This document shows, piece by piece, positions 4,651-25,599 of a stretch of 47,325 bases of DNA (within the stretch, counting starts at the first letter, position 1; each line of letters starts with the position of its first letter). Source of the DNA: Candidatus Terrybacteria bacterium RIFCSPHIGHO2_01_FULL_43_35 (lineage in GTDB: Bacteria > Patescibacteriota > Minisyncoccia > Terrybacterales > GWB1-40-14). The notes beneath the pieces were generated by a model, which was not told the origin of the DNA, did no database searches, and worked only from the letters and a program-made list of their open reading frames with translations. Position numbers and translations under genes: made by a program. Location of the stretch: the NCBI GenBank assembly GCA_001822815.1, contig MHSR01000001.1, positions 1 to 47,325 on the forward strand. Reading direction: 5' to 3'.

Positions 4651-4790
4651 ATCCCGTTAGAGACAGCATAACGGGAAATTATAAGTAATTTGTACGGTAT
4701 ACAGATATTAAATTTTTAAACAAGATCAAGGCGCAATTTACGGAAGCGCTTTAAATTCCTCCGTAAAGCGCTTCCTATCTCTAACGGGAT
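4651..4790 (+). promoter_or_regulatory. CCCGTTAG element A: 140-bp inverted-repeat 5' leader
   Basis: The left arm ATCCCGTTAGAGACAG (4651-4666) pairs with the right arm CTATCTCTAACGGGAT (4775-4790) at 15 of 16 positions. The final AT is the start of the ATG of the 76-aa gene. An inner hairpin, GGAAGCGCTTTA / TAAAGCGCTTCC, lies at 4742-4774. The left arm can instead pair locally with AACGGG at 4669-4674. TATTAT boxes lie about 10-18 bases before the left arm, so transcription may begin close to the element. Sequence, length and hairpin match elements B and C. The function is inferred. Confidence 0.7.
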
Positions 4791-5019
4791 GAAAAGGAAC
4801 AAAGAAGAAATGGAGCTTAACCAGAGACTCATACCGCTTCCGGCGTTTTTGGCTTCATACAATAAAAATATTCCCGCAAGTTTTCCGCAAGCCTCTGTCG
4901 CAATATTAAAAAAGTTTCAGGGAACCTATCCCATGCTTTTTAAGAAAGGCAATATGTGGTCTATAGATCAGCATCGTAAGAAATTGATTGATTGGCTTTC
5001 TGTATATCGTGATATCTAA
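4789..5019 (+). CDS. Unidentified 76-aa protein
   Basis: A small soluble, basic protein (MKRNKEEMELNQRLIPLPAF...), with no signal peptide or membrane segment. It contains an aromatic/hydrophobic C-terminal half (MLFKKGNMWSIDQHRKKLIDWL) that looks like a compact helical fold. I do not recognise the family. The ATG is fused to the right arm of a CCCGTTAG element, as for pilT and gatA, which supports the gene being real and the start correct. A weak hairpin (TCCTC/GAGGA, then a T-run) follows at 5067-5093 and could terminate it. Confidence 0.65.
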   Translation: MKRNKEEMELNQRLIPLPAFLASYNKNIPASFPQASVAILKKFQGTYPMLFKKGNMWSIDQHRKKLIDWLSVYRDI

Positions 5020-5097
5020 AATATCCGGAGAAGTCCCTCATTAGAACTTTCTTGTTTCAAAAATATTCCTCCATAATTTGCGAGGATTTTTTGTTTA

Positions 5098-5170
5098 CCC
5101 CGTTAGAGGCCACGCCTCCGCCAGAGGCAGGCCCAAAAAGTGCCTGCGGGGCGGGCTGCCTCTAACGGGG
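5098..5170. repeat. CCCGTTAG element G: short GC-rich variant
   Basis: The arms CCCCGTTAGAGGC (5098-5110) and GCCTCTAACGGGG (5158-5170) are perfectly complementary over 13 bp. The interior is GC-rich and self-complementary (GCCTCCGCC with GGGGCGGGC; AGGCAGGC with GCCTGC). It shares the terminal core with elements A-F but not their interior. It lies between the 76-aa gene and the exonuclease gene, about 65 bases before the latter's start, so it is not joined to a start codon. Confidence 0.7.
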
Positions 5171-5218
5171 TTTACGCCCATGGTTTGGTTTTGAAACTGG
5201 ACAAAATTAAGGCTTGGC

Positions 5219-5224
5219 TATACT
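5219..5224 (+). promoter_or_regulatory. -10 box of the exonuclease gene
   Basis: TATACT ends 10 bases before the ATG at 5235, so transcription would start almost at the start codon (leaderless mRNA). This supports choosing 5235 over the upstream TTG at 5214, which overlaps the box. Confidence 0.5.
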
Positions 5225-5234
5225 CTTATATTTA

Positions 5235-5837
5235 ATGAATTCTAATGATATCAATAATGACCCAAATATAAGACCACTGGCTTTTTTGGATACGGAGACT
5301 ACCGGGCGCTATCCTGGCATGCACGAATTGCTGGAAATAGGAGTGGTTATTGCGCGCGCCGATAATTTGGCGATGATGGATTCGTTTGCCATAAAAGTTA
5401 AACCAGAACATATAGAAAAAGCCGAACCTGAAGCATTGGCTGTAAACCGCTGGAATGAAGAAGAGTGGCGTGATGCATTGCCTATTGCTGAAGCAATAAA
5501 GATATTTGGCGAGCGTGCGCGAGGTGCCACGCCCGTAGGCTGGAACGTTTCTTTTGACCGCTCTTTTTTGGAGCCGGCCATGAACAGGCTTGGGTTAGTG
5601 CTTGATGATTTCGCCCTTGATTATACTTGGCGGGATATAAAAATGGACTTTATCCGCTGGGCTTATCTCACTGGCCAGGAAGAAAAATTCGCGCCGCGTT
5701 TCAGTTTGTCTTCGGCCATGCGGTATTTCGGCATATCAGCCGATGATCATCACCGCGCCTTGCCAGACGCTATCGCCACCTGGCAAATGGCGCAACGTCT
5801 CGAAGAAGAGTTCGCAAAACTCAAAATCAAATCCTAA
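5235..5837 (+). CDS. DEDDh 3'-5' exonuclease (DnaQ/RNase T-like)
   Basis: A 200-aa single-domain exonuclease. The catalytic set is visible: D19 and E21 in FLDTETTG (Exo I), D108 in NVSFDRSF (Exo II), and H173 with D178 in HHRALPDA (Exo III, the H-x4-D of DEDDh enzymes). Such proteins remove nucleotides from DNA or RNA 3' ends. This one carries no polymerase domain, so it could be a free-standing proofreading subunit or a repair/RNA-trimming nuclease. The ATG at 5235 is preferred because a -10 box overlaps the earlier TTG at 5214. It is a single gene between a hairpin element and the prkA cluster. Confidence 0.88.
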   Translation: MNSNDINNDPNIRPLAFLDTETTGRYPGMHELLEIGVVIARADNLAMMDSFAIKVKPEHIEKAEPEALAVNRWNEEEWRDALPIAEAIKIFGERARGATPVGWNVSFDRSFLEPAMNRLGLVLDDFALDYTWRDIKMDFIRWAYLTGQEEKFAPRFSLSSAMRYFGISADDHHRALPDAIATWQMAQRLEEEFAKLKIKS

Positions 5838-5919
5838 TTATTGACTCTTGCTAATTATTTTCGTACGCTAAAGGCAACTAAAAGTTCATTGATAAAGCTT
5901 TAGAAAGCAGGAGCCAATC

Positions 5920-8067
5920 ATGAACATCGAGTTGCTGGTTTTTGCCTCGGCAATCTTTTTGATTGCGGCCGCGTTGATTGTATTTGCAGCCGTGTTAATC
6001 GAAAAGCGATTAAGCGCTTTGAACAAAACACTTTCAGCTAACAGGAATCAACCCTCGGACGAGTCTGTCGAAGAAATGCCGCAATTAACCGGCAATAAGG
6101 AAACTTCAATTGAAGACACAAAGCCGATTCCACCGTCTCAGCCAAAACCAGAGATGACCGTAGCTGATTTTCTGGAGAAAGCAAAATCTGATCCTCAAAT
6201 GCTTGAGAGTGCGGCGCAGATGATTTATCGCGCGGTTTTTGAAGAGCCTGGATTCATCAAGATTTCTCATGAAACCAATGCGAAAGCTTCGCAAGCCATA
6301 GGACTTATTCCTGGCCAGACATTGAATGTTCCTAAATCCTTCTACGGTCAATTTTTCGGCAGGGAGCGGGAGTTGGCCCAGTTGACTCTGTTTATGGCTT
6401 CGGCCGCCAAGGGAGCTGAAGACGCGCGACAGGTTTTTGCTTTGGTGGGCCCGCGCGGCACAGGCAAATCGCAGATGATCGAGTTCATGAAGCGCAAGAT
6501 AACCGGACAGGTTATTTACACGCTTAAAGGCTGCGACAATAATGATCATCCAATGTGGATTACGCCTTTGAATAAGCGCAACGCATTGGCCGAAGAATAC
6601 GGATTTATGCCCGGATCTACCCCGTCTGCTTTACCAACGCATCCGACGTTCAGAGGCGATATATGCCCGCAGTGCCGTTTACGTCTTGAACAGGAATATA
6701 ATTTTGAATGGCGTAAGTTCCCGGTAGTGAAGAGAAAAATTTCTTCGCGCCGCGGCGTTGGCATTGCCGTAGTGGATCCTGTTGATCCTAACAACCAAGA
6801 TATCGGTGTTCTTATCGGCACCATTTCTATTAAGGATCTTGATAAATACGATGAAGGCGACCCGCGCACCATGGTTTTACGCGGAGCATTCAACAAAATG
6901 AACCGCGGCATCGGCGAATTCCGAGAAGGATGGAATAACGATTCTCAATATTTGTATCCCATCATCTTCTCTACGCAGGAAGGCACTGTTGATTCGCCCG
7001 GTCAATACGAGCTGGTTTCGCACGATTCTTGCCAGGTTTTCCACTCTAACATGGGAAGTTGGCACAAGTTCCTGTCTGACCCAAACAGCGAGGCGCTTAT
7101 TGGCCGCGTTGAGCCGATACTGTATAGACATCTTTTGCGTTATACCGAAGAAGCCAAGGTTTATGAAAAGGAACGTCAGCGTTCTTTGTACGGAAGGTCA
7201 AACATCTCGCCGCATACCCTGGAAGCTTTAGCCTTCCATGCGGTTATAACTCGTTGCGATCCTCAGATTGATAAGCCCATAGGTTATGATAAGGCGTTGA
7301 TTTATGATGGCTTCGGCATCGATCCTATGAACACGCCTCAGAAATTGCTGCAGATGTCGCCAAAAGATGGCTTGATGGGTTTGGATAGCCGTTTCTTCAC
7401 TAAAGTGCTTGGTGAGGCTTATGCAAGATCAGGAGGAGCTTGTTTAATCTGGAGTGATTTGCGAAATCAAGTTTCACAAAGCCTCAAGAGAAATTTTGAG
7501 GTAGGGGAATTAACTCTTCCTGAATTCAACTATTTCCAGGAAGTGCTTGCCCAAGCCGACGTTTTTTACCTCAACAGTCTCGATAATGACCTTAAGTTTA
7601 TAAGCAGCAAGGCAATGCAAGAATTGGCTCTTAATCTTTTCTATAAATATTGCGATCATTTGCGGCGTTGGAGCGTAAGGCATAAAGCCCGCATTCATAG
7701 CCAAGATGAAAGCATATTTCCTGAGTATAGCGAAGACGTTTTAAGCGTAATAGAAAAGCATCTCGGTGTACGCGCCAACGATCTTGATGGTTTCCGTGAG
7801 GAGTTTGTTGATTGGCTGATTGATTACGAAACGCGCAACAAAGAACAACCCAAGTGGGATGTTCATCCGCGTCTGCGTAGAGCCATTGAATCCGTTTTGT
7901 GGACGCGCCTGCAGAACATTTTGCGCATTCCGCAGTCATCCGCGCTCCTTTCGGAAGAAGATGCGCTTATCTATCGCTCGGTTGTTGCCGAAATGCTTAC
8001 GCGCGGCTATCACGAAGATTGCGTTGACCGCGTTCTGGCCTCCGCTTCAGATCTTTGGACAACATAA
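5920..8067 (+). CDS. prkA: PrkA/YeaG-type serine protein kinase, membrane-anchored
   Basis: A 715-aa protein related to PrkA/YeaG, an AAA+-type ATPase with a C-terminal kinase-like domain. It has a Walker A motif GPRGTGKS at 177-184, NNDHPMW near 207-213, the block PNNQDIGVLIG, and ATP-domain sequence STQEGT. Unlike E. coli YeaG (about 640 aa) it has an N-terminal transmembrane helix (residues about 5-28), a charged linker to about 80, and a CPQC pair at 249-252. A clear Shine-Dalgarno site (AGCAGGAG) precedes the ATG. It is followed by a terminator, then yeaH and spoVR homologues, a grouping known for stress and stationary-phase functions in other bacteria. Confidence 0.92.
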   Translation: MNIELLVFASAIFLIAAALIVFAAVLIEKRLSALNKTLSANRNQPSDESVEEMPQLTGNKETSIEDTKPIPPSQPKPEMTVADFLEKAKSDPQMLESAAQMIYRAVFEEPGFIKISHETNAKASQAIGLIPGQTLNVPKSFYGQFFGRERELAQLTLFMASAAKGAEDARQVFALVGPRGTGKSQMIEFMKRKITGQVIYTLKGCDNNDHPMWITPLNKRNALAEEYGFMPGSTPSALPTHPTFRGDICPQCRLRLEQEYNFEWRKFPVVKRKISSRRGVGIAVVDPVDPNNQDIGVLIGTISIKDLDKYDEGDPRTMVLRGAFNKMNRGIGEFREGWNNDSQYLYPIIFSTQEGTVDSPGQYELVSHDSCQVFHSNMGSWHKFLSDPNSEALIGRVEPILYRHLLRYTEEAKVYEKERQRSLYGRSNISPHTLEALAFHAVITRCDPQIDKPIGYDKALIYDGFGIDPMNTPQKLLQMSPKDGLMGLDSRFFTKVLGEAYARSGGACLIWSDLRNQVSQSLKRNFEVGELTLPEFNYFQEVLAQADVFYLNSLDNDLKFISSKAMQELALNLFYKYCDHLRRWSVRHKARIHSQDESIFPEYSEDVLSVIEKHLGVRANDLDGFREEFVDWLIDYETRNKEQPKWDVHPRLRRAIESVLWTRLQNILRIPQSSALLSEEDALIYRSVVAEMLTRGYHEDCVDRVLASASDLWTT

Positions 8068-8076
8068 CTATTTTTT

Positions 8077-8104
8077 AACCCCAGCAAGCTGGGGTTTTTA
8101 ATTT
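8077..8104 (+). terminator. Rho-independent terminator after prkA
   Basis: AACCCCAGC-AA-GCTGGGGTT followed by TTTTAATTTTT, 10 bases after the prkA stop. It may set the level of the downstream yeaH-spoVR genes. Confidence 0.85.
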
Positions 8105-8184
8105 TTAGAATTTCTTTACATGCCCGCAAACTTGAGTTAAAGTATGAACAATCTATCCTTGAAAATCTTTGGACGAGGTCAACA

Positions 8185-9327
8185 ATGTCCGTAAGGATAT
8201 CCGATAGGCGTGATGAAGGCCCGCGTTTTATCCAGCGCGATATTAAGCGCCATAAAGCGCTAATCCACAAGAATTTGATGAAGCGCCTGCACGATTTGAT
8301 CGCTAATGAAGAAGTTATTTCCTCGGAAGGCAGCAGGAAAATACGTGTTAAAATCTCCACGCTTAAAGAGCCCCAATTCCGTTTTGGACATGCGCCTCAA
8401 GGGGTGGGTGAAGGCGGCGGCGTGCGGAAAGGCCAACAGCTTCCAGGTTCCCAGCCTGGCCAATCCCAAGGTAATGGACAGCAGGCTGGCAGTGAGCCAG
8501 GTGAAGAGATTTACGAAGAATACACGGTGGACGAAATTTTTGATGCCCTTATTGCCGATCTTAACTTGCCGGATCTTGAGCCCAAAGTTAAAGGCGCTCT
8601 CGAACTTGATCGGGTCAGTAAATCCAAGGGCACTCAGCCGCGCGGCAATATGTCGCGTCTGCACAGGCGCGCTTCAGCTAAGCGCAGAATTAAGCGTCGC
8701 ATTGCGCAAGGCGCCGTCTCCGCAGAACGTTTTCCATTCAGAGAAGAAGACCTGCGTTTTCGCAGGCGCGTGCGAGAACCACGCCCAGAATCAAACGCGG
8801 TTGTCATACTTGCGCGAGACGTTTCAGGTTCAATGAGTGACGAGAAGAAATATATTTCTAAGGCGATGTGCTGGTTAATAACAAAATGGGTGCGCAGAAA
8901 ATATACTAATGTTAAAACAGTTTTTATCGCGCATCACACCGAGGCCAGTGAGGTTAGTGAGAAAGAATTCTTTACGCGAGTTTCTTCTGGGGGCACGGCA
9001 ATTTCATCTGCCTATAAAGAAGCTAAGCGCATTATTGGCGAGAAGTACCAGCCGGCTTTTTGGGATGTTTATTTCGTGCACTGCTCAGACGGTGAAAACG
9101 AAGATAGAGATCGCGATCCGGCGCTCGAGGCTGCCGAAGCTTTACTTAAATTTGTAAAACTTTTTGGTTACGTCGAAATTAAAACAACCCAATCCTTTAT
9201 CGCCAAATTCAAAGAGTTAGCCGCGGCTTATCTTAATTTTTCAGCAGTCAGCATAAAAGAAAAAAACCAGGTGGCTAGAGCCTTTATAAATATGCTTTCG
9301 CATATAAATGATGGAGCTGAAGCATGA
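8185..9327 (+). CDS. yeaH: YeaH/YhbH (DUF444) von Willebrand A-domain protein
   Basis: A 380-aa protein of the DUF444 family. The N-terminus (RISDRRDEGPRFIQRDI) is typical, followed by a Gly/Gln-rich linker (about 70-105), a very basic stretch (158-198), and a vWA domain. The MIDAS motif is DVSGSMS, D212-S218, with the later Thr in SGGTA and the Asp in HCSDGENE. In E. coli YeaH is encoded next to the kinase YeaG and acts with it. The preceding spacer holds the prkA terminator. The stop overlaps the spoVR start by four bases (ATGA), which implies translational coupling. Confidence 0.93.
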   Translation: MSVRISDRRDEGPRFIQRDIKRHKALIHKNLMKRLHDLIANEEVISSEGSRKIRVKISTLKEPQFRFGHAPQGVGEGGGVRKGQQLPGSQPGQSQGNGQQAGSEPGEEIYEEYTVDEIFDALIADLNLPDLEPKVKGALELDRVSKSKGTQPRGNMSRLHRRASAKRRIKRRIAQGAVSAERFPFREEDLRFRRRVREPRPESNAVVILARDVSGSMSDEKKYISKAMCWLITKWVRRKYTNVKTVFIAHHTEASEVSEKEFFTRVSSGGTAISSAYKEAKRIIGEKYQPAFWDVYFVHCSDGENEDRDRDPALEAAEALLKFVKLFGYVEIKTTQSFIAKFKELAAAYLNFSAVSIKEKNQVARAFINMLSHINDGAEA

Positions 9328-10688
9328 GCCACAACTGGACGGTTGAAGAATTGTCGCATTGGGCCAACATTGTCGATGCAACAGCGCGATCTTTTGGGCT
9401 GCAGCCGCGCCAGATGGATTTTGTTATAGTTTCTCCCGATCGTCTAATCGAGATACAAGCCTATAACGCGCCTTTGGGGCATGCGCACTGGTCGCGCGGC
9501 AAAACCTTTCAGGTTTGGCAGACTATGCGCGATGTCAAAGGTGCCGGAGCCCTTGAAGTGGCCTTTAATGCCGATCCCTGCTTTGCGGCCCTAAGACCTG
9601 ATCAGAGTTTCGTGGCTCAATTGGTTATCATGGCGCATACCATTGCGCATAATGATTTTTTTGCCAATAATCGCTGGTTTGCCAAAACTTCACCAGATAC
9701 GATATTGAATCGTCTTGCCGAAAACAGAAAACTCGTCAACGCTTATATGAAACGCTATGGGGAAAAACAAGTCGAGAAAGTTCTTGATGCCGCACATGCC
9801 ATTGCCGTGCAAAGACCTTTGGTCGGCGGCCAAGATCGCGATTGGCTCTTGAGCTACATCATTGACTATTCGCCGTCTCTGCAGGATTGGCAGAAAGATC
9901 TTTGCCGAGTAGTAGAAAACGAAACCGACCACTTCATTTGGCAGTATGAAACCAAAATCATGAACGAAGGTTGGGCCAGTTTGTGGCAGAAACGTATCGT
10001 TAATGCTTTACCCATTACTGAGGAACAGCGCTTTGAAGCCAAGGACTGGTATGCGGCTATTACCAAGCGCGGCGCCTCTTCGGCTTTTGGCGAAGCCGTA
10101 AATCCGTATCATCTCGGCTTTGCCATATTTGAAGATCTCAAGAATCGCTGGGATGCTATGGCAGAAGGAAGTTTTATTTCCAATGAAGAAAATAACGATA
10201 ATGACGTTTGGGATGGTTTGAACGGAACAGATAAATTACTGCAGGTTCGCAGCCTATACCGTGATAGAAGGTTCTTACAGGATTTTCTTACCCAAGAAGT
10301 AGGCATACAACTTGGTCTATGGCGCTATGGTCCTAATGCACGAGGCTCTCAAATGGTGATTGTTACCGACACCATGGAAGAGGGATCTTTTGAGAATATA
10401 CGCAATGAACTTATGCGCGATTGCGGTCTGGGCTCTTTTCCTTCGGTATCGATTAAAGATACGAACTACAAGAATAGACATGAGTGGCTGTTTGTTCACA
10501 ACTGGGACGGTCGTGATTTGGACGTAAGTTATACCAGGCTAACGCTTATGGCCCTGTTTGATCTTCTTGGGCCGGTATGGCTTGAGACCAGAACACGCAA
10601 GCGCAATGCTCCTTACTTTTATTATTTTGATGGCGCCAGTTTCTTGTCTGGAGCCGAGGGCAGTTCGCGTTCTACTTTGCCCAGATAG
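9324..10688 (+). CDS. spoVR: SpoVR/YcgB family protein
   Basis: A 454-aa soluble protein of the SpoVR family (YcgB in E. coli). It begins WTVEELSHWANIVDATARSF and has the characteristic segments FQVWQTMRDVKGAG, HTIAHNDFFANN, and NEGWASLWQKR. SpoVR was first linked to the Bacillus spore cortex, but non-sporulating bacteria also carry it with PrkA and YeaH, so a spore role is not implied. The biochemical activity is unknown. It starts within the yeaH stop codon and ends just before a strong terminator, so the cluster finishes here. Confidence 0.93.
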   Translation: MSHNWTVEELSHWANIVDATARSFGLQPRQMDFVIVSPDRLIEIQAYNAPLGHAHWSRGKTFQVWQTMRDVKGAGALEVAFNADPCFAALRPDQSFVAQLVIMAHTIAHNDFFANNRWFAKTSPDTILNRLAENRKLVNAYMKRYGEKQVEKVLDAAHAIAVQRPLVGGQDRDWLLSYIIDYSPSLQDWQKDLCRVVENETDHFIWQYETKIMNEGWASLWQKRIVNALPITEEQRFEAKDWYAAITKRGASSAFGEAVNPYHLGFAIFEDLKNRWDAMAEGSFISNEENNDNDVWDGLNGTDKLLQVRSLYRDRRFLQDFLTQEVGIQLGLWRYGPNARGSQMVIVTDTMEEGSFENIRNELMRDCGLGSFPSVSIKDTNYKNRHEWLFVHNWDGRDLDVSYTRLTLMALFDLLGPVWLETRTRKRNAPYFYYFDGASFLSGAEGSSRSTLPR

Positions 10689-10701
10689 TAATTAGCCGAT
10701 T

Positions 10702-10730
10702 ATCCCGCAAAAAATGCGGGATTTTTTATT
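10702..10730 (+). terminator. Terminator after spoVR
   Basis: ATCCCGCA-AAAAA-TGCGGGAT followed by TTTTTATT, 13 bases after the spoVR stop. Confidence 0.88.
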
Positions 10731-10780
10731 CGTGAATTTGCCCTTTGCGTTGGACCATAGCATAGCGCATGTAGATTACA

Positions 10781-10786
10781 TATAAT
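10781..10786 (+). promoter_or_regulatory. -10 box of the glycosyltransferase gene
   Basis: TATAAT ends 7 bases before the ATG at 10794, so the mRNA would be leaderless or nearly so. No Shine-Dalgarno site is present. Confidence 0.6.
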
Positions 10787-10793
10787 TAAAATC

Positions 10794-12386
10794 ATGGCGT
10801 CCAACAGCACAAGTGAAGATATCATATCTAAAAAACCATATTTGTTCTGGGGCAAGGCTCCTGACATTCAAGATGCCGCAAGCCGCAAAGTGTGGCGTTT
10901 TATGGAAATGTTGCCAGGATTGCTCTCTTTCGGCACTATTTTTGTTTTGACAGCGCTCTCATTTTTACTCCCATGGGCCGTAGCCATATTCATAATACTT
11001 TTTGACTTAATATGGCTGATGAGGGTCCTGTCTTTGTCTTTGCATCTCATAATTTCTTATCGCAAAGTTAAGCGGTCCATGCGTACTAATTGGTTGGTTA
11101 AGCTGAAAGACATTGTCAATTACAATCCCAAGCTAGGTATAAGCGATTGGCATGATTTGTGGCATTTGGTGATTCTGCCCATGTATAAAGAGCCGAAAGA
11201 GGTTATTGAAGAAACTTTGACCGCTTTATCAAAAAGCGATTACCCAAAAGACAGATTATTGGTGGTTGTGGCTTGCGAAGAACGAGCGGGAGAGGATCAA
11301 TGGCAGATGGCCAATGCGGTTGCGGCTAACTTTAAAAGTTATTTTGCCGATCTTATTCTTACTAAGCATCCCGCAAATATAGTTGGAGAAATCGCCGGTA
11401 AGGGCTCCAATGAAACTTGGGCAGCCAGGGAAGCCGTTGGCTTGTTGATCCAACCTAAGGATATTGACCCGCGCAGGGTTATTGTTTCATCTTTTGATAT
11501 TGATACGCGCATTTATCCGCAATATTTTTCCTGCCTTACTTATACCTTTCTTATTACCAAAGATCCTCTGCATGTCAGCTATCAACCCATTCCTCTTTAT
11601 AACAATAATATTTGGGAGGCGCCGGCTTTCTCCAGACTTGTGGCAACTGGCAATACCATCTGGCAAATGATCCAGCAGGTGCGGCCAGAGCAAATGGAAA
11701 CTTTTTCATCGCACGCCATGAGTTTGGATTCGCTGATAAAAATAGGTTTTTGGAACACTAAAGTAGTTTCAGAGGATTCGTTGATTTTTTATCAGGCCTT
11801 TCTGGCGTTTGAAGGCCGTTATCGGGTTGTGCCGCTTTTTTATCCTGTATCTATGGATACTAATGTGGGCGAAAATTTTATTGACACCATCAGTAATGTT
11901 TATAGGCAGCAAAGAAGATGGGCCTATGGCGCAGAAAAAATACCGTATCTTTTCTACGGATTTTTAAAAACAAAGCAGATATCTTTAAAGAAAAAGATAT
12001 TCCATATGTGGGTCATATTGGATGGTTTTTGGTCTTGGGCTTGCGGAGCCATTCTTATTTTTATCTTCGGCTGGCTGCCACTCGTGGCCGGCGGCGAGCA
12101 TTTTCAGTCATCGGTATTGGCGACCAATCTACCCTATGTAACAAGTTTTATGCTTAATATTGCCCTGATTGGTATTGTCATCAATGGCGTTTTGGCCTTC
12201 TTACTTCTTCCGCCTCGACCAAAGTACGTTTCGCGTTTAGTTCCGGCATCAATAGTTTTGCAATGGTTTCTCTTGCCGGTAATAATTATAATTTTTGGCT
12301 CCTTGCCCGCTTTGGATGCGCAAGCACGATTGCTCTTCGGAAAATATATGGGTTTTTGGGTGACCCCAAAATCCAGGACCAAATAG
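10794..12386 (+). CDS. Membrane glycosyltransferase, family 2
   Basis: A 530-aa inner-membrane enzyme. Two hydrophobic segments (about 45-90) precede a cytoplasmic GT-A catalytic domain, and several helices follow (about 400-520). Motifs: VILPMYKEP near 127-134, the D-x-D pair at 235-237 (SFDIDT), acidic SED at 326-328, and QQRRW at 372-376. This D, DxD, ED, QxxRW set is typical of processive family-2 transferases that move a sugar from a nucleotide donor and often export the chain. The sugar and polymer are unknown. The gene has its own near-leaderless promoter and converges on recG with 2 bases between stops. Confidence 0.85.
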   Translation: MASNSTSEDIISKKPYLFWGKAPDIQDAASRKVWRFMEMLPGLLSFGTIFVLTALSFLLPWAVAIFIILFDLIWLMRVLSLSLHLIISYRKVKRSMRTNWLVKLKDIVNYNPKLGISDWHDLWHLVILPMYKEPKEVIEETLTALSKSDYPKDRLLVVVACEERAGEDQWQMANAVAANFKSYFADLILTKHPANIVGEIAGKGSNETWAAREAVGLLIQPKDIDPRRVIVSSFDIDTRIYPQYFSCLTYTFLITKDPLHVSYQPIPLYNNNIWEAPAFSRLVATGNTIWQMIQQVRPEQMETFSSHAMSLDSLIKIGFWNTKVVSEDSLIFYQAFLAFEGRYRVVPLFYPVSMDTNVGENFIDTISNVYRQQRRWAYGAEKIPYLFYGFLKTKQISLKKKIFHMWVILDGFWSWACGAILIFIFGWLPLVAGGEHFQSSVLATNLPYVTSFMLNIALIGIVINGVLAFLLLPPRPKYVSRLVPASIVLQWFLLPVIIIIFGSLPALDAQARLLFGKYMGFWVTPKSRTK

Positions 12387-12388
12387 CT

Positions 12389-15769: not shown

Positions 15770-15819
15770 GCTTATGACACAAAGTTATTGTAGAACCTAT
15801 CCAATCACCGTTACTCGTT

Positions 15820-16303: not shown

Positions 16304-16393
16304 GGAGGGGTGCCTGAGTGGTTGAAAGGGACAGTCTTGAAAACTGTTATACCCGCAAGGGTATCGCGAGTTCGAATCTCGCCCCCTCCGCCA
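16304..16393 (+). tRNA. tRNA-Ser(TGA), CCA encoded
   Basis: Class II tRNA: acceptor GGAGGGG/CCCCTCC, anticodon stem ACAGT/ACTGT with loop CTTGAAA (anticodon TGA), long variable arm TACCCGCAAGGGTA, T arm GCGAG-TTCGAAT-CTCGC, discriminator G, then encoded CCA. Confidence 0.95.
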
Positions 16394-16417
16394 ATAAAAA
16401 TCGAAGTTTATTTAAAG

Positions 16418-16474
16418 TTGCAAAAAGAACATCCAAAGAGTAGTATTTAATTTGGATGTTCTTTGAATTTGCAA
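16418..16474 (+). repeat. Long inverted repeat before the 282-aa gene
   Basis: AAAGAACATCCAAA and TTTGGATGTTCTTT are complementary, and flanking TTGCAAA / TTTGCAA extends the stem with a small bulge. It ends about 15 bases before the downstream ATG. There is no T-tract, so it is more like a leader hairpin than a terminator, though it could end the tRNA-Ser transcript. Confidence 0.6.
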
Positions 16475-16488
16475 GGGGAGTTAACCTA

Positions 16489-17337: not shown

Positions 17338-17344
17338 GCAGATG

Positions 17345-17378
17345 AACCGCTTTCTGGTTTAATGAAAGCGGTTTTTAT
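17345..17378 (+). terminator. Terminator after the 282-aa gene
   Basis: AACCGCTTTC...GAAAGCGGTT followed by TTTATT, 7 bases after the stop. It slightly overlaps the end of comF on the opposite strand. Confidence 0.8.
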
Positions 17379-18064: not shown

Positions 18065-18120
18065 ATTTTTTACTGCCCCAATCCTTTAAATATATGCTTT
18101 TGTGGCTACAAGGCCCATGG

Positions 18121-18126
18121 TATAAT
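18121..18126 (+). promoter_or_regulatory. -10 box of the pilus operon
   Basis: TATAAT ends 4 bases before the first pilM ATG (18131), or 7 before the second ATG. The transcript is likely leaderless. Confidence 0.6.
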
Positions 18127-18130
18127 AATA

Positions 18131-19243
18131 ATGATGATTTGGAACCCATTCACTAGAAAGCCGAGGGGATTTTTAGGTATTGATATCGGTACTTCTTCAG
18201 TTAAGGTTGTTGAACTTGCCGGTGTCAAAAAGGGCGGCATCGCGCTTGGAACTTATGGCGAGCTTAAAGCCTACGGATATTTGAAGAGGCTTTCTGACCC
18301 GATACAGGGCAGTTCTTTACAGATGCTTGATAGCGAGGTGGCCGAAATGATCAAACGCATTTTGGATGAGTGTAATGCCAAAAGTAGTGCCGCTTCAATG
18401 TCTATTCCGGTTTTCTCTTCATTTTTCACATTACTGGAGCTGCCGTCAATGAGCGATAAGGAATTGGCCAATGCCATACCTTTTCAGGCTCGTCAGCTTG
18501 TGCCCATACCCATATCCGAAGTTGTTTTGGATTGGGAAATAATCGGACGTTTTAATCCGCGGGCCGACTCGCCAAACGCGCAAGAACGTCTCTTGGTTTT
18601 GTTGGTGGCGGTTCCACGTGAAGTAGTGGATAAATATGTCCGTGTGGCAAAACTTGCTGGCGTGGAGTTGCGCGGTCTTGAAGTAGAAACCTTTAGCATG
18701 GTGCGTGCTCTTTTGCGCGATAATGAAGATACGAATCTTTTGCTTGATATCGGCGCGCGTTCCACCAATATAACCATAGTTGATGGAGGGGCAATACGCA
18801 TGAGCCACAATTTGGATATTTCTGGTAATGAATTTACAAGAGCATTGGCGCATTCTTTGGGAGTAAATATGAAAAGAGCCGAAGAGCATAAAATTACCAG
18901 CGGTATTTTACAAAAAGGAGGAGAGCTTGAATCTTCTAGAGCGTTGATTCCGCTGATAGATGCCATTATGCAGGATGCCGAAAAAATAATGAATATATAT
19001 TACCGTAAGTACGGACATAAAGTTGTAAGAATCATGTTGGGTGGAGGAAGCACTAATCTGCCCGGTTTGGTTGAATACCTCTCTTCGCGTTTCGGAAAAG
19101 AAGTTGTTGTTGGTGATCCGTTCCACGGTATTGTTTTCCCCAATATCCTTGAGCCAATTATTAGGGATATCGGTCCGGCTTTTTCCGTGAGCGTAGGTTT
19201 GGCCTTAAGAGAGCTTGTGCCTCAGAAAACTTTTGCAAAATAA
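18131..19243 (+). CDS. pilM: Type IV pilus assembly ATPase-like protein PilM
   Basis: A 370-aa cytoplasmic actin-like protein. The phosphate-1 motif is FLGIDIGTSSVKVVEL (about residues 14-29), and the later nucleotide motifs LLLDIGARSTNITIVDGG and RIMLGGGSTNLPGL are clear. PilM forms a cytoplasmic ring that binds the N-terminal tail of PilN and links the platform to the motors. It is the first gene of the run pilM-pilN-pilO-118aa-pilB, with short gaps throughout. Confidence 0.94.
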   Translation: MMIWNPFTRKPRGFLGIDIGTSSVKVVELAGVKKGGIALGTYGELKAYGYLKRLSDPIQGSSLQMLDSEVAEMIKRILDECNAKSSAASMSIPVFSSFFTLLELPSMSDKELANAIPFQARQLVPIPISEVVLDWEIIGRFNPRADSPNAQERLLVLLVAVPREVVDKYVRVAKLAGVELRGLEVETFSMVRALLRDNEDTNLLLDIGARSTNITIVDGGAIRMSHNLDISGNEFTRALAHSLGVNMKRAEEHKITSGILQKGGELESSRALIPLIDAIMQDAEKIMNIYYRKYGHKVVRIMLGGGSTNLPGLVEYLSSRFGKEVVVGDPFHGIVFPNILEPIIRDIGPAFSVSVGLALRELVPQKTFAK

Positions 19244-19252
19244 TTCATAAAA

Positions 19253-19834
19253 ATGGCTATAACCATCACATCTAAGGGCTATGGAGATGTAAAGAAATCC
19301 GTCAATTACGGCTCTTCAACCAATTTCATTTTTATTGCTTCAGTTGTTATTTTTTCCAGCGTGATGCTGGTTTGGCTTGGGCTTTTCGCGGTTAATTTTT
19401 CTGTTCAGAACCAGAGCAATGATTTAAGTGATCAGCGCGCGAAACTTGAAAAAGAAAAAAACGCGGTCAAGCCCAAGGAAACAAAACTTCTGGACGTACA
19501 AAAAAGAATCTCACAGATAAACAAAATCATCCAAACTCATCCCAACGGCAAATATTTATTTGATACTTTGGCCAAGGGGACACGAGGAGATGTAAAGTTT
19601 AGAAATGCTCGTGTTGATTTTATCAACGGGACGCTAACCATGGATGGTGAAGCGGCCACTTATCCGGCATTGTCATTGCAGTTATTGGCATTCGAGCCGA
19701 GTTTTCAGAACTGGATACGTTCTATGCAGATAAAAAACATAAAGCGTGTTGTTGATGCGTCCGGGAGCGCCGGTGCCGTATCTTTCAATTTGTTTATAAC
19801 CTTCGATCAAAAAATACTTCTTAACAAGGATTAA
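19253..19834 (+). CDS. pilN: Pilus assembly protein PilN-like
   Basis: A 193-aa bitopic membrane protein: a short cytoplasmic tail, one membrane helix (about residues 26-48), a coiled coil (LSDQRAKLEKEKNAV...), then a ferredoxin-like periplasmic domain. Sequence similarity to classical PilN is weak. The call rests on topology and on the position between pilM (9 bases upstream) and a PilO-like gene. No INLLP-type tail for PilM binding is seen; the N-terminus reads MAITITSKGYGDVKKS. Confidence 0.75.
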   Translation: MAITITSKGYGDVKKSVNYGSSTNFIFIASVVIFSSVMLVWLGLFAVNFSVQNQSNDLSDQRAKLEKEKNAVKPKETKLLDVQKRISQINKIIQTHPNGKYLFDTLAKGTRGDVKFRNARVDFINGTLTMDGEAATYPALSLQLLAFEPSFQNWIRSMQIKNIKRVVDASGSAGAVSFNLFITFDQKILLNKD

Positions 19835-19867
19835 TTTTAAAATCACCCCTTAAAAGAATTGTTATTT

Positions 19868-20449
19868 ATGGATTTCAGGATAATCGTTTCAATTTTTCTT
19901 TTACTCGGCAGTTTTGTTGGTGCGGCTTTAGGCGCGTTTCCTGCATGGCAGTCCATAAGCGAATCTATCATCGCCAAAAAAGACGTTGAACGGCACGTGC
20001 GGGATTTAGGGGTGTATTTTAACAACCTTAAAAAATTAGAGGCCGATATTAAAAATAACATTGATGTTGAAAAATGTACCAGATTGAATAACATCGCCCC
20101 AGCCGGAGTAGATCTGCCGCAATTATTGATTCAGTTTGATAATTTGGCCGCTATTTATCAAGCCCGTCTTGGCTCCATAAATATTAATGAACCCACGAGT
20201 ATTTCGGAGGAGGCTGGATCGGTTAAGACATCCGGCTTGTCCCTGGAGATTCCCATAACTAATTTTAATCAAATCTTTCAGTTTTTTGACGATTTATACT
20301 ATTTAGAAAGGCTTACGGACATAAAAGCCGTAGATTTAAATGTTCCAGATCTAACCAAACCCGAAGAGAAAGTTTCGGTGTTGAATAACTTGAGGGTGGC
20401 AGTTTTCAGTTCGATTCGTGCTTTGGACTGCGATAATTTAACAAAATAG
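19868..20449 (+). CDS. pilO: Pilus assembly protein PilO-like
   Basis: A 193-aa bitopic protein: one N-terminal membrane helix (about 4-26), a helical stretch, and a C-terminal alpha/beta domain (LSLEIPITNFNQIFQFFDDL...) with the PilO-type pattern of a sequence-binding loop followed by a phase of beta strands. The ATG at 19868 is chosen; a TTG at 19859 would add three residues. PilO pairs with PilN in the platform complex. Assignment is by topology and order. Confidence 0.75.
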   Translation: MDFRIIVSIFLLLGSFVGAALGAFPAWQSISESIIAKKDVERHVRDLGVYFNNLKKLEADIKNNIDVEKCTRLNNIAPAGVDLPQLLIQFDNLAAIYQARLGSININEPTSISEEAGSVKTSGLSLEIPITNFNQIFQFFDDLYYLERLTDIKAVDLNVPDLTKPEEKVSVLNNLRVAVFSSIRALDCDNLTK

Positions 20450-20451
20450 TT

Positions 20452-20808
20452 ATGCTTCTGCCAAAGATAAGTACTGCATCAAAAATTAAGTCTATAGATT
20501 TAGGAGGCGGCATGTTTGATTTTTTCCGCCGCCACTTGTTCCAGATTTTCTTCGCGGCGTGGTTTATTACCATGGTTATTGTCGTGGCTTTTATGTATGT
20601 TGAAATAAACAGAGAATTAAATGCTCCGATAGCCGAACGCACTTCCGCAAAGTTTAAGCTTGAGAAATTAGACACAAGCATTTTTAACAACCCTATTTTC
20701 AAGAATCTTCGTACCGTGGGTTCGCGCCCTCAAGAAATAGATTATAAACAGTGCCTGGGTGTGCCCGGTCGGCCCAGCGCCTTTACAGAGTTTGTGCCAT
20801 GCCCGTAA
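20452..20808 (+). CDS. Small bitopic protein of the pilus operon
   Basis: A 118-aa protein with one membrane helix (about residues 29-49) and a short outer region ending in Cys and Pro-rich sequence. It occupies the place of pilP in classical operons, but it lacks a lipobox and the PilP beta-domain. It cannot bind a secretin if none exists, as the lack of pilQ suggests. The 3' end overlaps the pilB start by ten bases. The role is unknown; it may be a clade-specific platform part. Confidence 0.7.
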   Translation: MLLPKISTASKIKSIDLGGGMFDFFRRHLFQIFFAAWFITMVIVVAFMYVEINRELNAPIAERTSAKFKLEKLDTSIFNNPIFKNLRTVGSRPQEIDYKQCLGVPGRPSAFTEFVPCP

Positions 20809-22613
20809 CAAAACCACCAACTTCATCCGGATCCATTTCGCATCCTCACGGTAAAGCTTCGGGTACCCAGGATTTTATAGACCATCTCGTAAAAGAGAAA
20901 GTTATTTCATTGCAGCAAGCTAAGGATGTTTTAAATGAAGCCTCACGATTGAATAAGCCAGTCGAAGCCGCAATTTTATCCAAGGAGATTATGAATGAAG
21001 AGGATTTGCTGGCGGAAAAAGCCTCTTTTTTGGGCCTAGACTGGCGTTTGATCCCCACAGAGCAGAAGATACCCGAAGCAATACTTTCACAGATACCAGA
21101 GGAAGCCGCAAAAACTTATCGCATGGTGCCTCTGGCGCGCGACGGCAACATTTTGGAAGTCGGCATGATAACTCCAGAAGATGTCCGGGCCCAGGAAGCA
21201 TTGCAATTTATTGCGGCTCGCAACAATTTTATACCCAAACGCATTCTAATTTCTCCTATAGGTTATGAAGTAATTGTGAGGCAATACCGAAGTTTGGGCG
21301 GTGAGGTTACGGCTGCGCTTGGCGAATTGGAAAAAGAACTTCAAAAGACCGAAGAAATCGAAACTAGGCCAGCGCCGCAGCGCACCGTTGGAGAAATTCT
21401 TGAAGAAGAAGCTCCTATAGTTAAAATGGTTTCGGTCATTTTGAGACATGCTTCTGAAGGAGGGGCTTCCGATATACACATAGAACCCTTAGGCGATAGG
21501 TTGCGTGTCCGTTTCCGTATGGATGGCATACTGCATACATCCATCCTTTTACCTATAGCCGTGCATCCGGCCATAGTTTCAAGAATTAAAATCCTCGCCA
21601 ATCTTAAAATAGATGAGACAAGATTACCTCAAGATGGCCGTTTCCATGCTGTCATGGAGGGTAAAGAATTTGATTTTCGCGTCGCAACGCTTCCAACCGC
21701 CAATGGCGAAAAAGTAACTATCCGTGTTTTGGACCCCACAACTGGCGTAAAAAGCTTGGGTGACTTGGGCGTTGTGGGTCATAACCGACAGGTTATTGAA
21801 GGCGGCATTAGAAAACCTTACGGTATGATCCTTATTTCAGGACCTACGGGTTCAGGCAAATCAACAACTCTTTATGCATTACTTAAGATTCTTAATAAAG
21901 AGGTCGTAAATATAGTAAGCTTGGAAGATCCTATTGAATATACTATTGACGGCGTTAATCAGTCGCAGATACACGAAGACATCGGTTATACATTTTCATC
22001 GGGCTTAAGGCACATTTTGCGGGGTGACCCCAACGTTATAATGGTAGGCGAGATACGCGATTCCGACACGGCCAAGTTAGCCATACATGCAGCTCTAACC
22101 GGACATTTAGTTTTGACCACTATACATACTAATAATGCAGTGGGTATAATCCCGCGAATTATAGATATGGGCGTTGAACCATTTCTTGTCCCGTCTTCGG
22201 TTGCAGTAGGCATTGCCCAGCGTCTGGTACAAAAATTATGCAACAATTGCAAGACTATTGTTTCTCCCGAAAGAGGGAACCTGGCTATTATAGAACGTGA
22301 ATTGAAGAATCTGCCGGAAGAAGAAAAAAAGCGCATACCGGCCGGACCCATTAAAGTTTGGAACGCGCCTGGATGCGATAAGTGCGCAGGGCATGGAACA
22401 AAGGGGCGCATAGCCATTTTTGAATCTTTCGATATGACGCAGGAAATGGAGCAGATAATCGTTGACGATCTAACCGAAGGCAAGATACTTGAAGAAATAA
22501 AACGTCAAGGCATGGTGACTATGCTTCAGGACGGAATCTTGAAAGCTCTGGAGGGCATAGTTTCAATAGAAGAAGTATTGAGGGTCGTTGAAGAGCACGA
22601 ATCAAATAGTTAA
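20799..22613 (+). CDS. pilB: Pilus extension ATPase PilB (GspE family)
   Basis: A 604-aa hexameric motor ATPase. It has an N-terminal GspE/MshEN domain (LAEKASFLGLDWRLIP), an Asp box (DIHIEP), Walker A GPTGSGKST near residue 349, Walker B with NVIMVGEIRDSDTA near 410-425, a His box, and a zinc-binding tetracysteine (CNNC, CDKC). The ATG at 20799 overlaps the end of the 118-aa gene. The frame continues upstream to 20751, but that stretch is the other gene read in a different frame. It powers pilin addition. Confidence 0.95.
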   Translation: MPVTKPPTSSGSISHPHGKASGTQDFIDHLVKEKVISLQQAKDVLNEASRLNKPVEAAILSKEIMNEEDLLAEKASFLGLDWRLIPTEQKIPEAILSQIPEEAAKTYRMVPLARDGNILEVGMITPEDVRAQEALQFIAARNNFIPKRILISPIGYEVIVRQYRSLGGEVTAALGELEKELQKTEEIETRPAPQRTVGEILEEEAPIVKMVSVILRHASEGGASDIHIEPLGDRLRVRFRMDGILHTSILLPIAVHPAIVSRIKILANLKIDETRLPQDGRFHAVMEGKEFDFRVATLPTANGEKVTIRVLDPTTGVKSLGDLGVVGHNRQVIEGGIRKPYGMILISGPTGSGKSTTLYALLKILNKEVVNIVSLEDPIEYTIDGVNQSQIHEDIGYTFSSGLRHILRGDPNVIMVGEIRDSDTAKLAIHAALTGHLVLTTIHTNNAVGIIPRIIDMGVEPFLVPSSVAVGIAQRLVQKLCNNCKTIVSPERGNLAIIERELKNLPEEEKKRIPAGPIKVWNAPGCDKCAGHGTKGRIAIFESFDMTQEMEQIIVDDLTEGKILEEIKRQGMVTMLQDGILKALEGIVSIEEVLRVVEEHESNS

Positions 22614-22652
22614 AATATAATCAATAAAATTTAATCTAGATATAAAATAAGA

Positions 22653-22792
22653 ATCCCGTTAGGGACAGCATAGGCGTGTTATACTTAATTTATAAATTCA
22701 TACATATATTAATTTTTAATACATGAGTTAGGAAGCAATGTACGGGAGCGCTTTAGCTTCTTCCGTAAAGCGCTTCCTGTCTCTAACGGGAT
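22653..22792 (+). promoter_or_regulatory. CCCGTTAG element B: 140-bp leader of pilT
   Basis: The left arm ATCCCGTTAGGGACAG (22653-22668) pairs with CTGTCTCTAACGGGAT (22777-22792), with one G-U pair. The last two bases are the first two of the pilT ATG. The inner hairpin GGGAGCGCTTTA / TAAAGCGCTTCC keeps pairing through a G-U. TATAAA at 22641-22646 would place the transcript start at the first base of the element. Length and interior match elements A and C. Confidence 0.75.
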
Positions 22793-23858
22793 GAATTACG
22801 AACAAGAATTAGACGATTTACTATCAACGGTTGCGATGCAATCCGCATCAGATATTCATATTGCTGTCGGGCGCTATCCGACAATTAGAGTAGACGATTC
22901 TTTATTGCCGCTTTCTTCTAAAAAAATATTGATACCTGAAGATACCGAGAGTTTCGCCAAAGTTATAATGTCTAAAGCCCAATGGGAATTGTTTTTGGCG
23001 ACCAAAGAGATAGATTTAGGCTATTCATTTAAAGATAAGGCACGATTTCGCGTCAATATTTTCAGACAAAAAACTTTTATTTCTATAGTAATGCGCTTAA
23101 TCCCAGCGCATATAAGAACAGTAGATGAATTGGCCCTGCCGCCCATATTGCACGAGTTCACGCGTCATGCTCAAGGGTTTTTTCTTATGGTTGGGCCTGC
23201 CGGTCACGGCAAATCTACAACACTGGCCGCGCTTGTGGATGAAATTAATCACGAAAGAGCCGATCATATAATAACCATAGAAGATCCAATAGAATATTTA
23301 TATCAGCAAGACCGGTCAATTATTGACCAGCGTGAAGTGGGGATAGATACAAATGATTTCATTACCGCTTTACGTTCCGCCTTCCGTCAGGATCCGGATG
23401 TTATATTGGTTGGTGAAATGCGTGACGCCGAAACAATTTCCGCCGCACTGACAGCTGCTGAAACGGGCCATTTGATCTATTCAACTCTGCACACGAATAA
23501 TGCCGCCCAGACCATTGATCGTATAATAGATACCTTTCCTGCCGGGCAGCAGGGGCAGGTCCGCAATCAATTGGCTATGACCTTGACCGGCGTTGTTTCA
23601 GAAAGACTTATTCCTCGTCTTGAAGGAGGGCGAATACCTGCCTGTGAAGTTATGATAGCCACGCCGGCAGTGCGCAATTTGATCCGCGAGGCTAAAACTC
23701 ACGAGATAGATTTGGTCATTGAAACAAGTGCCGATGAGGGTATGATTTCGCTGAACCGCGCCTTGGCCGAGATGGCCAAAAAAAGAGAGATCTCTTTGGA
23801 AAACGCTGAACTTTATTCTTCAAATCCAAGCGAATTGCGCATGTTAATTGGACGGTAA
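22791..23858 (+). CDS. pilT: Pilus retraction ATPase PilT
   Basis: A 355-aa hexameric ATPase: Walker A VGPAGHGKST near residues 136-145, Asp box EDPIEYLY, Walker B RQDPDVILVGEMRDAET near 199-215, and His box TGHLIYSTLHTNNAAQTIDR. The length is normal for PilT. It drives pilus retraction, as needed for twitching and DNA uptake. It has its own leader (element B) rather than a short gap to pilB, so its expression is probably set separately from extension. Confidence 0.95.
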   Translation: MNYEQELDDLLSTVAMQSASDIHIAVGRYPTIRVDDSLLPLSSKKILIPEDTESFAKVIMSKAQWELFLATKEIDLGYSFKDKARFRVNIFRQKTFISIVMRLIPAHIRTVDELALPPILHEFTRHAQGFFLMVGPAGHGKSTTLAALVDEINHERADHIITIEDPIEYLYQQDRSIIDQREVGIDTNDFITALRSAFRQDPDVILVGEMRDAETISAALTAAETGHLIYSTLHTNNAAQTIDRIIDTFPAGQQGQVRNQLAMTLTGVVSERLIPRLEGGRIPACEVMIATPAVRNLIREAKTHEIDLVIETSADEGMISLNRALAEMAKKREISLENAELYSSNPSELRMLIGR

Positions 23859-23967
23859 ATTATAAATTAAAAAGTAAAAGCGGAAAATTAAAAATTCAGG
23901 GAATTCGCCATTGGCGGATCACGATAGTTTTTAGTTTTTCATTTTACGTTTTAAATTTTCAAAGGAA

Positions 23968-25176
23968 GTGTCCACTTATTTTTATCAGGCGCGCACCACA
24001 CAAGGCGAAATACAAACCGGGGTTATCGAAGCCGGCTCTCATGACGCGGCTGTTGCTGTTCTTCAGCGGCACGGGCTTTTTATTACTAACCTCGCCGAAA
24101 CGCAAAGCCGGTCTCTATTTAAGAAAGATTTTAAGCTTTTTGAGCGCATTAGCCGCAAAGAATTGGTAAATTTTTCACGGCAGATATCGGTCCTTTTCGA
24201 AGCGCGAGTCCCCCTGGTTGAATCCGTGCGTACGCTTGGCGAACAGACAAAAAATTTAACCTTCCGTAAGACCCTCATGGCTATCGCCACGGACGTTGAT
24301 TCGGGAAAACCATTTTCTGAAGCCTTAAGCCGTTTTCCAAAAGTTTTTTCGCCATTTTACGTTAATATAATTAAGTCTGGTGAGGCTTCCGGGCGCTTAG
24401 AGGAAGCTTTTAATTATCTAGCTGATTATTTAGACCGTGAATACGCGTTAATTTCTAAAGTCAGAGGAGCTTTTATATATCCCATTTTTGTTTTTGTGGT
24501 TTTCGTGGTCGTAACCGCTATTATGGTTGTTTTTATAGTGCCAAAACTTCAGGACGTATTGAACGAATCTGGGCAGCAATTTCCTTTGCCTACACGCGTT
24601 TTGATAGGCCTTTCGGGTTTTGCCAGAAGTTACGGCATTTTTTTACTGTTAGGTTTGGCTATAGCGGGCATAATGTTTTTTTACTACATCAAAACAAAAG
24701 AAGGCAAGGTTTGGTGGGATGCCGTTTCTTTGCGTATGCCGATTTTCGGCAATCTTCTAAAAAACATCTACGTTGCTCGCTTCAGCGATAATTTAGGAAC
24801 GTTGATATCCTCTGGTTTGCCTATAATTCAGGCAATAGGCATTACAAAAAATATTGTTGGTAATGAGATGTTTGCCCGCATGCTTGCGGAAGCAGAAGAG
24901 GCCGTCAAGCGCGGAGAGATGATAAATACGGTTGTTCATGGGCAGTGGTTTGTACCAGGTATGGTTGCCGAAATGATAGCGGTAGGTGAGAAGACTGGAA
25001 AGTTAGACGTAATCTTGGGACATGTTGCGCGTTTCTTCAGGCGAGAAGTTGATGTGGCCGTAGAAAATATAGTTTCGTTGATAGAGCCCATCTTGATTGT
25101 TTCTTTGGGGCTAATTGTGGCCGTGCTTGTTGCGGCAATCTTATTGCCGATATATAATTTAGCTAGTGCTTTTTAA
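23968..25176 (+). CDS. pilC: Inner-membrane platform protein PilC
   Basis: A 402-aa protein of the T2SSF/PilC family. It has two copies of the platform domain (each a helical cytoplasmic bundle; first with NFSRQISVLFEARVPLVESV, second with RFSDNLGTLISSGLPIIQAIG) and three membrane helices (about 170-200, 225-245, 370-400). The start is GTG with a Shine-Dalgarno AAAGGAA just upstream. The C-terminal LIEPILIVSLGLIVAVLV is typical. It couples the motors to pilin insertion. Confidence 0.94.
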   Translation: MSTYFYQARTTQGEIQTGVIEAGSHDAAVAVLQRHGLFITNLAETQSRSLFKKDFKLFERISRKELVNFSRQISVLFEARVPLVESVRTLGEQTKNLTFRKTLMAIATDVDSGKPFSEALSRFPKVFSPFYVNIIKSGEASGRLEEAFNYLADYLDREYALISKVRGAFIYPIFVFVVFVVVTAIMVVFIVPKLQDVLNESGQQFPLPTRVLIGLSGFARSYGIFLLLGLAIAGIMFFYYIKTKEGKVWWDAVSLRMPIFGNLLKNIYVARFSDNLGTLISSGLPIIQAIGITKNIVGNEMFARMLAEAEEAVKRGEMINTVVHGQWFVPGMVAEMIAVGEKTGKLDVILGHVARFFRREVDVAVENIVSLIEPILIVSLGLIVAVLVAAILLPIYNLASAF

Positions 25177-25245
25177 ATCAGCGTATAGCGATTAACGCAT
25201 GGCGCATAGTGTAGCGATCTAAACGTTTAATGCTAGATGCTTTAA

Positions 25246-25450
25246 ATCCCGTTAGAAGCCGCGATCGCAACAAATTAACAGTAAACCCCGTTAGAAAGTT
25301 ATTTCCGAAACTTTTATAGAGAATATTATATTTGATATGTTTGTGATGCGAGCTTTCTAACGGGGTAAAAATATCTATTTCGTATATATTATCAATACAA
25401 GTAATTTTGCAGATTTAAGATTATTGATCGCGATCTGCTTCTAACGGGAT
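25246..25450 (+). repeat. CCCGTTAG element D, interrupted by element E
   Basis: ATCCCGTTAGAAGC (25246-25259) and GCTTCTAACGGGAT (25437-25450) are perfectly complementary. A second helix GCGATC (25261-25266) / GATCGC (25426-25431) lies inside. Another complete element (E) is contained within it, and element C follows three bases later. The block fills the 400-base gap between pilC and the first pilin gene. Confidence 0.7.
25286..25365 (+). repeat. CCCGTTAG element E, nested inside D
   Basis: CCCCGTTAGAAAG (25286-25298) and CTTTCTAACGGGG (25353-25365) form a perfect 13-bp stem enclosing an A/T-rich loop of 54 bases. The nesting could come from insertion of one element into another, or from local duplication. 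Confidence 0.7.
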
Positions 25451-25452
25451 AA

Positions 25453-25594
25453 ATCCCGTTAGAGACAACCTAACGGGCAAGAGCAAATAATTTGTATTCT
25501 ATAAAAATGATTAAAGTTTTAAGCAGGATTTATGCGCGATATTACGGAAGCGCTTTAATCTATTCCGTAAAGCGCTTCCTGCCTCTAACGGGAT
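25453..25594 (+). promoter_or_regulatory. CCCGTTAG element C: leader of the first pilin gene
   Basis: The left arm begins ATCCCGTTAGAGACA (25453) and the right arm ends CTCTAACGGGAT (25594). The inner hairpin GGAAGCGCTTTA / TAAAGCGCTTCC is identical to that of element A. The left arm can also pair with CTAACGGG at 25470-25477, an alternative 8-bp hairpin. The pilin ATG comes 6 bases after the element. Confidence 0.72.
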
Positions 25595-25599
25595 AAATT

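Follow-up and report, generated by a model that had tools for sequence, protein, structure and literature searches.

The window analyzed here, the whole 47,325-nt stretch of DNA from Candidatus Terrybacteria bacterium RIFCSPHIGHO2_01_FULL_43_35, contains three 140-bp-class hairpin copies (4651 to 4790, 22653 to 22792, and 25453 to 25594) that form its top direct-repeat family. The three hairpins are likely to be non-autonomous copies, or miniature inverted-repeat transposable elements (MITEs), of a Patescibacteria transposable element whose putative mobilizer is a small GIY-YIG protein. An earlier note on the window had described copies of 140, 140, and 142 bp, which are present as reported and fold far more strongly than dinucleotide shuffles (z scores of −5.6, −6.4, and −4.4 for copies 1 to 3), and had read them as a transferable cis-regulatory RNA. 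A transferable hairpin family edging start codons is indeed present, but its transposon ends, target site duplications, and empty orthologous sites argue against its being primarily a regulatory leader.

Each end of the element proper, TCCCGTTAG...CTAACGGGA, lies 1 base further in than first described, the adjoining 4 bases being the target duplication; two copies end on a start codon and the third ends shortly before one, as originally proposed. GGGATG start codons at 4789 and 22791 coincide with the right ends of copies 1 and 2. A small open reading frame (ORF) at 4789 takes the A of its start codon from copy 1 (4652 to 4789, plus strand, 138 bp), which is flanked by TGAA duplications, neither assigned a strand, at 4648 to 4651 and 4790 to 4793, the latter giving the TG of the start codon. 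With its last base, copy 2 (22654 to 22791, plus strand) contributes the A to the start codon of a T2SSE-family ATPase (pilT-like) gene at 22791 to 23858; its right duplication is TGAA (22792 to 22795), and the left counterpart at 22650 to 22653 is AGAA, with one change. Copy 3 (25454 to 25593, plus strand) lies 6 bases upstream of the ATG of a pilin gene (25600), and its right target duplication is TAAA (25594 to 25597).

Terminal inverted repeats and target duplications

The own genome (G000) comprises 827 kb in 25 contigs; 614 kb of the genome of a sister species (G001) was examined, and a further genome, G021, was likewise examined in part. Genes were called with a simple longest-ORF procedure. 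Full-length copies of the 140-bp family, designated family A, number eight in the own genome, on both strands, and at least three in the sister genome, which also holds partial ones. The 9-mer CCCGTTAGA occurs 83 times in the own genome, versus 8 times for a reversed-motif control, mostly as inverted pairs 57 to 275 bp apart, and its abundance varies patchily within the class, from 0 to 143 per genome. At least five families have common ends and different interiors: family A (140 bp), family B (about 118 to 203 bp, with GCGATCGC ends), families D and E (about 125 bp), and family F (about 67 to 73 bp, GC-rich).

The ends were defined from 82 pairs in five genomes (the own genome, G001, G021, G062, and G009) that were picked solely for exact ends. 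The outermost bases, outside CCC and after GGG, were complementary in 82/82 pairs, so the terminal repeat is (T/C)CCCGTTAGA and the elements have the form (T/C)CCCGTTAGA…TCTAACGGG(A/G), with a terminal inverted repeat (TIR) of at least 10 bp, and of 13 bp in the coding copies described below. Flank positions 2 to 5 agreed at ~80% each, and all four agreed in 53/82 pairs and in 52/79 pairs of an independent set. Where the outer flank base was other than the usual T or A, the two sides still agreed (5/5 and 6/7). The four-base agreement and the matching nonconsensus outer bases together indicate a target duplication of 4 bp, with the consensus TNNA inside an RTNNAY-like site. The 82-pair analysis, with its one-base-longer TIR, superseded a 6-bp duplication, a 2-bp core, and Tn916-like coupling sequences. 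Features by which MITEs and DNA transposons are recognized were found: terminal inverted repeats, a duplication of fixed length, empty orthologous sites, and a coding relative with the same ends.

Insertion at start codons

Placement on start codons follows from the geometry GGG-A|TGAA: at gene starts, T/A-ended elements give the A and the duplicated target gives TGAA, so that ATGAA is rebuilt. In the own genome, 12/13 ATGRA-type insertions lie on a start codon, against 27% expected from the 186 start sites and 513 noncoding, non-start sites available (binomial P of ~1e-6). Across the five genomes, an ORF of at least 60 amino acids (aa) is abutted by 35/47 T/A-ended elements versus 5/35 C/G-ended ones (Fisher P = 5e-8). 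Among 80 public sites chosen by right-end sequence alone, 72 open an ORF of at least 60 aa at the ATG of the element, compared with 24% for random ATGA. The earlier note had named a lack of bias toward start codons as grounds for abandoning its proposal; such a bias exists, and site availability alone does not suffice to explain it. The genes at the public sites, named from their N termini, include topA (three times), murG, the CTP synthase gene, the L35 gene, ruvX, rpsH, dnaJ, map, and metG. Start-codon elements across Patescibacteria fall into three size classes of about 118, 187, and 275 bp, and topA starts have been struck repeatedly in different lineages.

Shine-Dalgarno-like words precede 45/455 own-genome genes, within the background of 32 to 45/455 (ATG-start genes of at least 450 bp, leftmost starts), which suggests Shine-Dalgarno-independent initiation in this genome. 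This missing enrichment may account for the tolerance of genes to separation from their native upstream regions. Insertion at a start codon would then be survivable because the ATG is restored and translation seemingly proceeds without need for a Shine-Dalgarno sequence.

Comparison with the sister species

The elements are mobile. In the sister species, orthologues of the ORF at 4789, gatA, ssb, topA, and a nucleotidyltransferase gene begin at the same ATG without an element, and the elements are therefore insertions. Conversely, most of 12 start-abutting elements of the sister genome are missing from the own-genome orthologues. A CorA-like gene is the one site common to both genomes, and an extra B element is stacked there in the own genome. 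In one sister-genome case the ATG has become GTG, because the family there ends in G.

These comparisons also bear on whether the hairpin is a horizontally transferred cis-regulatory leader, a folded 140-nt RNA controlling translation of the gene whose AUG closes its stem. The strong predicted fold, the right end on the AUG, and the right hairpin retained in all family-A copies are what such a leader would show. Conservation upstream of orthologous genes, however, was seen only at the CorA-like gene, most sister-species orthologues having no element upstream, and the elements carry transposon ends and target duplications and have relatives that encode a GIY-YIG nuclease. The downstream genes are also unrelated in function. 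Two of the three window genes had been said to belong to the pilus, which does not generalize: other family-A elements precede genes assigned from sequence to SSB, RpoC, ATP synthase alpha, a nucleotidyltransferase, a CorA-like protein, and a small unknown protein, and a pilus regulon was ruled out.

Nor do the elements bring expression signals. The TATAAA box reported upstream is real before copy 2 and was not found before copies 1 and 3. Among 83 short start-abutting elements, the frequency of TATAAT, TANAAT, and TTGACA in sense interiors does not exceed that in antisense or shuffled ones, and a Shine-Dalgarno sequence is supplied by 2/83; an element-borne promoter and an element-supplied Shine-Dalgarno sequence were accordingly rejected. 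No Rfam family matched at the gathering threshold. Covariation within family A, whose copies hold too few changes for an informative comparison, does not exceed that of shuffles (43 to 85/500). The right hairpin is in all copies; the left-arm hairpin is not retained in some, namely, window copy 2 and copy L005. A regulatory RNA is thus an improbable explanation, and any regulatory role of the elements would be secondary.

Elements encoding a GIY-YIG protein

The MITEs have the 27 nt of their right end, which recur across the class, and their internal repeat in common with coding elements of ~275 bp. The latter encode a single protein of ~94 aa with a GIY-YIG domain (PF01541, 57 to 64 bits; cutoff, 22.6); among solved structures, the closest in sequence is the UPF0213 protein 1zg2. 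The protein ends in ...LKRFLSLTG, and its stop codon is the TGA of the target ATGA (GGA-TGA overlapping A-TGA). An intact own-genome copy lies at C22:5918-6199 (MNPVRD...) and is read from the host-side ATG on its left. Among the 26 full-size copies from public data, the frame is open in 22, half of which (11) begin at the host-side ATG and half (11) at an internal start codon; the remaining 4 are broken. Codon-position entropies of the gene are 1.15 (third), 0.63 (first), and 0.44 (second); it is under purifying selection.

The coding copies also preserve inverted repeats within the gene. In 17 of them, the outer repeat (13 bp) and the internal repeat, GGAARCGYTTTA near the middle with its complement adjoining the right end, are maintained through two-sided changes, mostly at synonymous positions (37 cells versus 10.4 in shuffles, 0/500). 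The internal hairpin of the MITEs consists of the same arms brought close together: in copy 1, GGAAGCGCTTTA and TAAAGCGCTTCC span 4742 to 4776 (plus strand), and the same arms, ~150 nt apart, covary in the 275-bp elements. The covarying repeat probably serves as a second site of recognition or forms a folded (single-strand) intermediate; its arms could be two protein-binding sites or parts of a folded strand.

Candidate mobilizing enzymes

The GIY-YIG protein probably mobilizes the elements, a reading that draws on sequence comparison. It would cut the element ends and RTNNAY-like targets and would move its own element and, in trans, the MITEs. GIY-YIG genes at least 58% identical are found mostly between these TIRs, and more distant ones almost never are. 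Over 2.7 Mb, no protein other than the GIY-YIG protein was found encoded inside TIR pairs; another autonomous enzyme between long TIR pairs was sought and discarded, the long pairs being two elements that flank host genes. Across 112 genomes, the number of GIY-YIG genes correlates with the number of TIRs (Spearman 0.46, P = 3e-7).

The same survey bears on an origin as elements of the repetitive extragenic palindromic (REP) type, moved by a Y1 transposase of the REP-associated tyrosine transposase (RAYT) or IS200-like kind. Small hairpins in many copies in a small genome resemble such repeats. However, the Y1 domain (PF01797) is absent from the own and sister genomes and from 14/28 TIR-rich relatives, and Y1 transposase number does not correlate with TIR number (Spearman 0.05 across the 112 genomes). 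Y1 transposition is not expected to produce a 4-bp target duplication such as the one found here. REP/RAYT and IS200/IS605 derivatives are alike in being small hairpin-ended repeats; their enzyme is absent here, and their ends and duplication are unlike those described above. With the Y1 transposase absent and uncorrelated, a REP/RAYT origin, to which we give almost no credence, was ruled out.

Several observations weigh against mobilization by the GIY-YIG protein. Characterized GIY-YIG homing endonucleases leave 2-nt 3′ extensions (PMC2988022), a stagger that does not by itself explain the 4-bp duplication; this is the main difficulty. For G021, which has 85 TIR motifs, the searched set holds no close GIY-YIG gene borne by TIRs, so that its nuclease was lost or is inactive or, alternatively, the elements have another mover. 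Families B to F share the same ends and target, and a coding version was not found for any of them. In addition, the nuclease gene shows only weak similarity to the AT-rich interior of the 140-bp form (z scores of −0.2 to 5.3), and start-codon placement may reflect selection against other insertions more than target choice.

The first three of these points would also fit a mobile element as described in which the GIY-YIG gene is a passenger and a host recombinase or an unlinked transposase recognizes the TIRs. That arrangement seems unlikely: the TIRs hold no other enzyme, GIY-YIG gene number follows TIR number, and the gene, with inverted repeats embedded in it, is under purifying selection.

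The elements may represent a new transposon class mobilized by the GIY-YIG protein, for which we see about an even chance. Such a class would consist of a self-sufficient element of ~275 bp with a ~94-aa GIY-YIG nuclease as its sole gene and transposase, targeting translation starts, borrowing a stop codon, and in some copies a start codon as well, from the host site it enters, and leaving a restored ATG and MITE families across Patescibacteria. Classical insertion sequences are far larger than ~275 bp, and to our knowledge the GIY-YIG nuclease fold is not known as a stand-alone transposase. A nuclease fold would then be added to the stand-alone transposases, and Patescibacteria, with their streamlined genomes, would have a class-wide mobile element of their own, one whose insertion at the start codons of such essential genes as ssb, topA, rpoC, atpA, and gatA is survived by the host. 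For many genes, the elements change the 5′ region and the start codon (ATG to GTG), and they would lead the annotation of leaders and small ORFs astray.

Distribution and relation to known systems

A 21-base pattern of the element was found in at least 114 stretches of GTDB genomes. Among the 80 listed, all named carriers belong to the Patescibacteria or candidate phyla radiation (CPR), including Nomura-, Kaiser-, Zambryski-, Wolfe-, Levy-, Woyke-, and Doudnabacteria and Kazan, and the remaining records are designated only "bacterium." Viral contigs, phages, and plasmids contained no match to the element, and phage or plasmid carriage was rejected on this basis; close homologues of the GIY-YIG protein were not found in 50,697 phage records.

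In the open-access literature, with subscription journals outside the search, no description of MITEs in CPR or Patescibacteria was found; judged by title and abstract, none of the open-access papers in which GIY-YIG appears together with terminal inverted repeats and target duplication describes such an element. Like prokaryotic MITEs, the elements are short and multicopy, have inverted terminal repeats and target site duplications, and share their ends with a coding relative. They differ in that the partner is a ~94-aa GIY-YIG nuclease rather than a DDE or HUH transposase and in that insertion occurs exactly on start codons, with the ATG rebuilt. Free-standing GIY-YIG homing endonucleases such as the T4 seg genes (PMC2988022) are likewise small, stand-alone, invasive genes at gene boundaries. 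Those enzymes home into the cognate allele, whereas the elements here occupy many unrelated sites and additionally have inverted terminal repeats, 4-bp duplications, and noncoding derivatives. Insertion sequences with homing endonucleases in CPR rRNA genes (PMC11270868) also occur in CPR hosts and occasionally encode GIY-YIG proteins; these interrupt rRNA genes, as introns or insertions, rather than protein start codons, and LAGLIDADG enzymes predominate among them. The term "inverted repeat" is absent from the main text of that study.

Other elements and insertions in the window

Neighboring elements have one duplication in common. A family-B element (25247 to 25449, plus strand) with GCGATCGC-type ends and the same TIR as family A adjoins copy 3, and TAAA at 25450 to 25453 serves as its right and as the left duplication of copy 3, recurring at 25594 to 25597 and 25243 to 25246. 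The three TAAA copies around copy 3 and its neighbor indicate serial insertion into one site. Nested in the B element is a further C/G-ended element of ~80 bp with the same TIR (25286 to 25365; TAAA duplication), so that stacked A and B elements, one carrying another, precede a single gene at 25247 to 25593; stacked A and B elements also occur in the own genome at C8:38192-38533. Such stacking before one gene is repeated insertion at the same site.

The A with which an amidase gene (gatA-like, 499 aa) starts is supplied by a fourth start-codon element of the window (41651 to 41782, plus strand), which has one mismatch in its right TIR and a TGGA duplication. Away from start codons, at 5098 to 5170, lies a C/G-ended element of 73 bp that is GC-rich and has the same TIR and a TTTA duplication.

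A second GIY-YIG ORF (44015 to 44242; PF01541, 58 bits) lies in the region 43944 to 44319, with an incomplete tRNA-Met-like copy on one side and an intact tRNA-Met on the other, and a 25-bp direct repeat of the 5′ part of the tRNA surrounds it (43944 to 43968 and 44245 to 44269). Lacking CCCGTTAGA ends, it resembles an independent insertion of the homing type. An ORF resembling LAGLIDADG_3 homing endonucleases (44941 to 45627; 54.9 bits) is located between tRNA-Met (44805 to 44878) and tRNA-Asp (45633 to 45708). Finally, a different small hairpin family consists of palindromic CCAGCCCC...GGGGCTGGG repeats at 34422 to 34449, 35000 to 35028, and 2482 to 2513.

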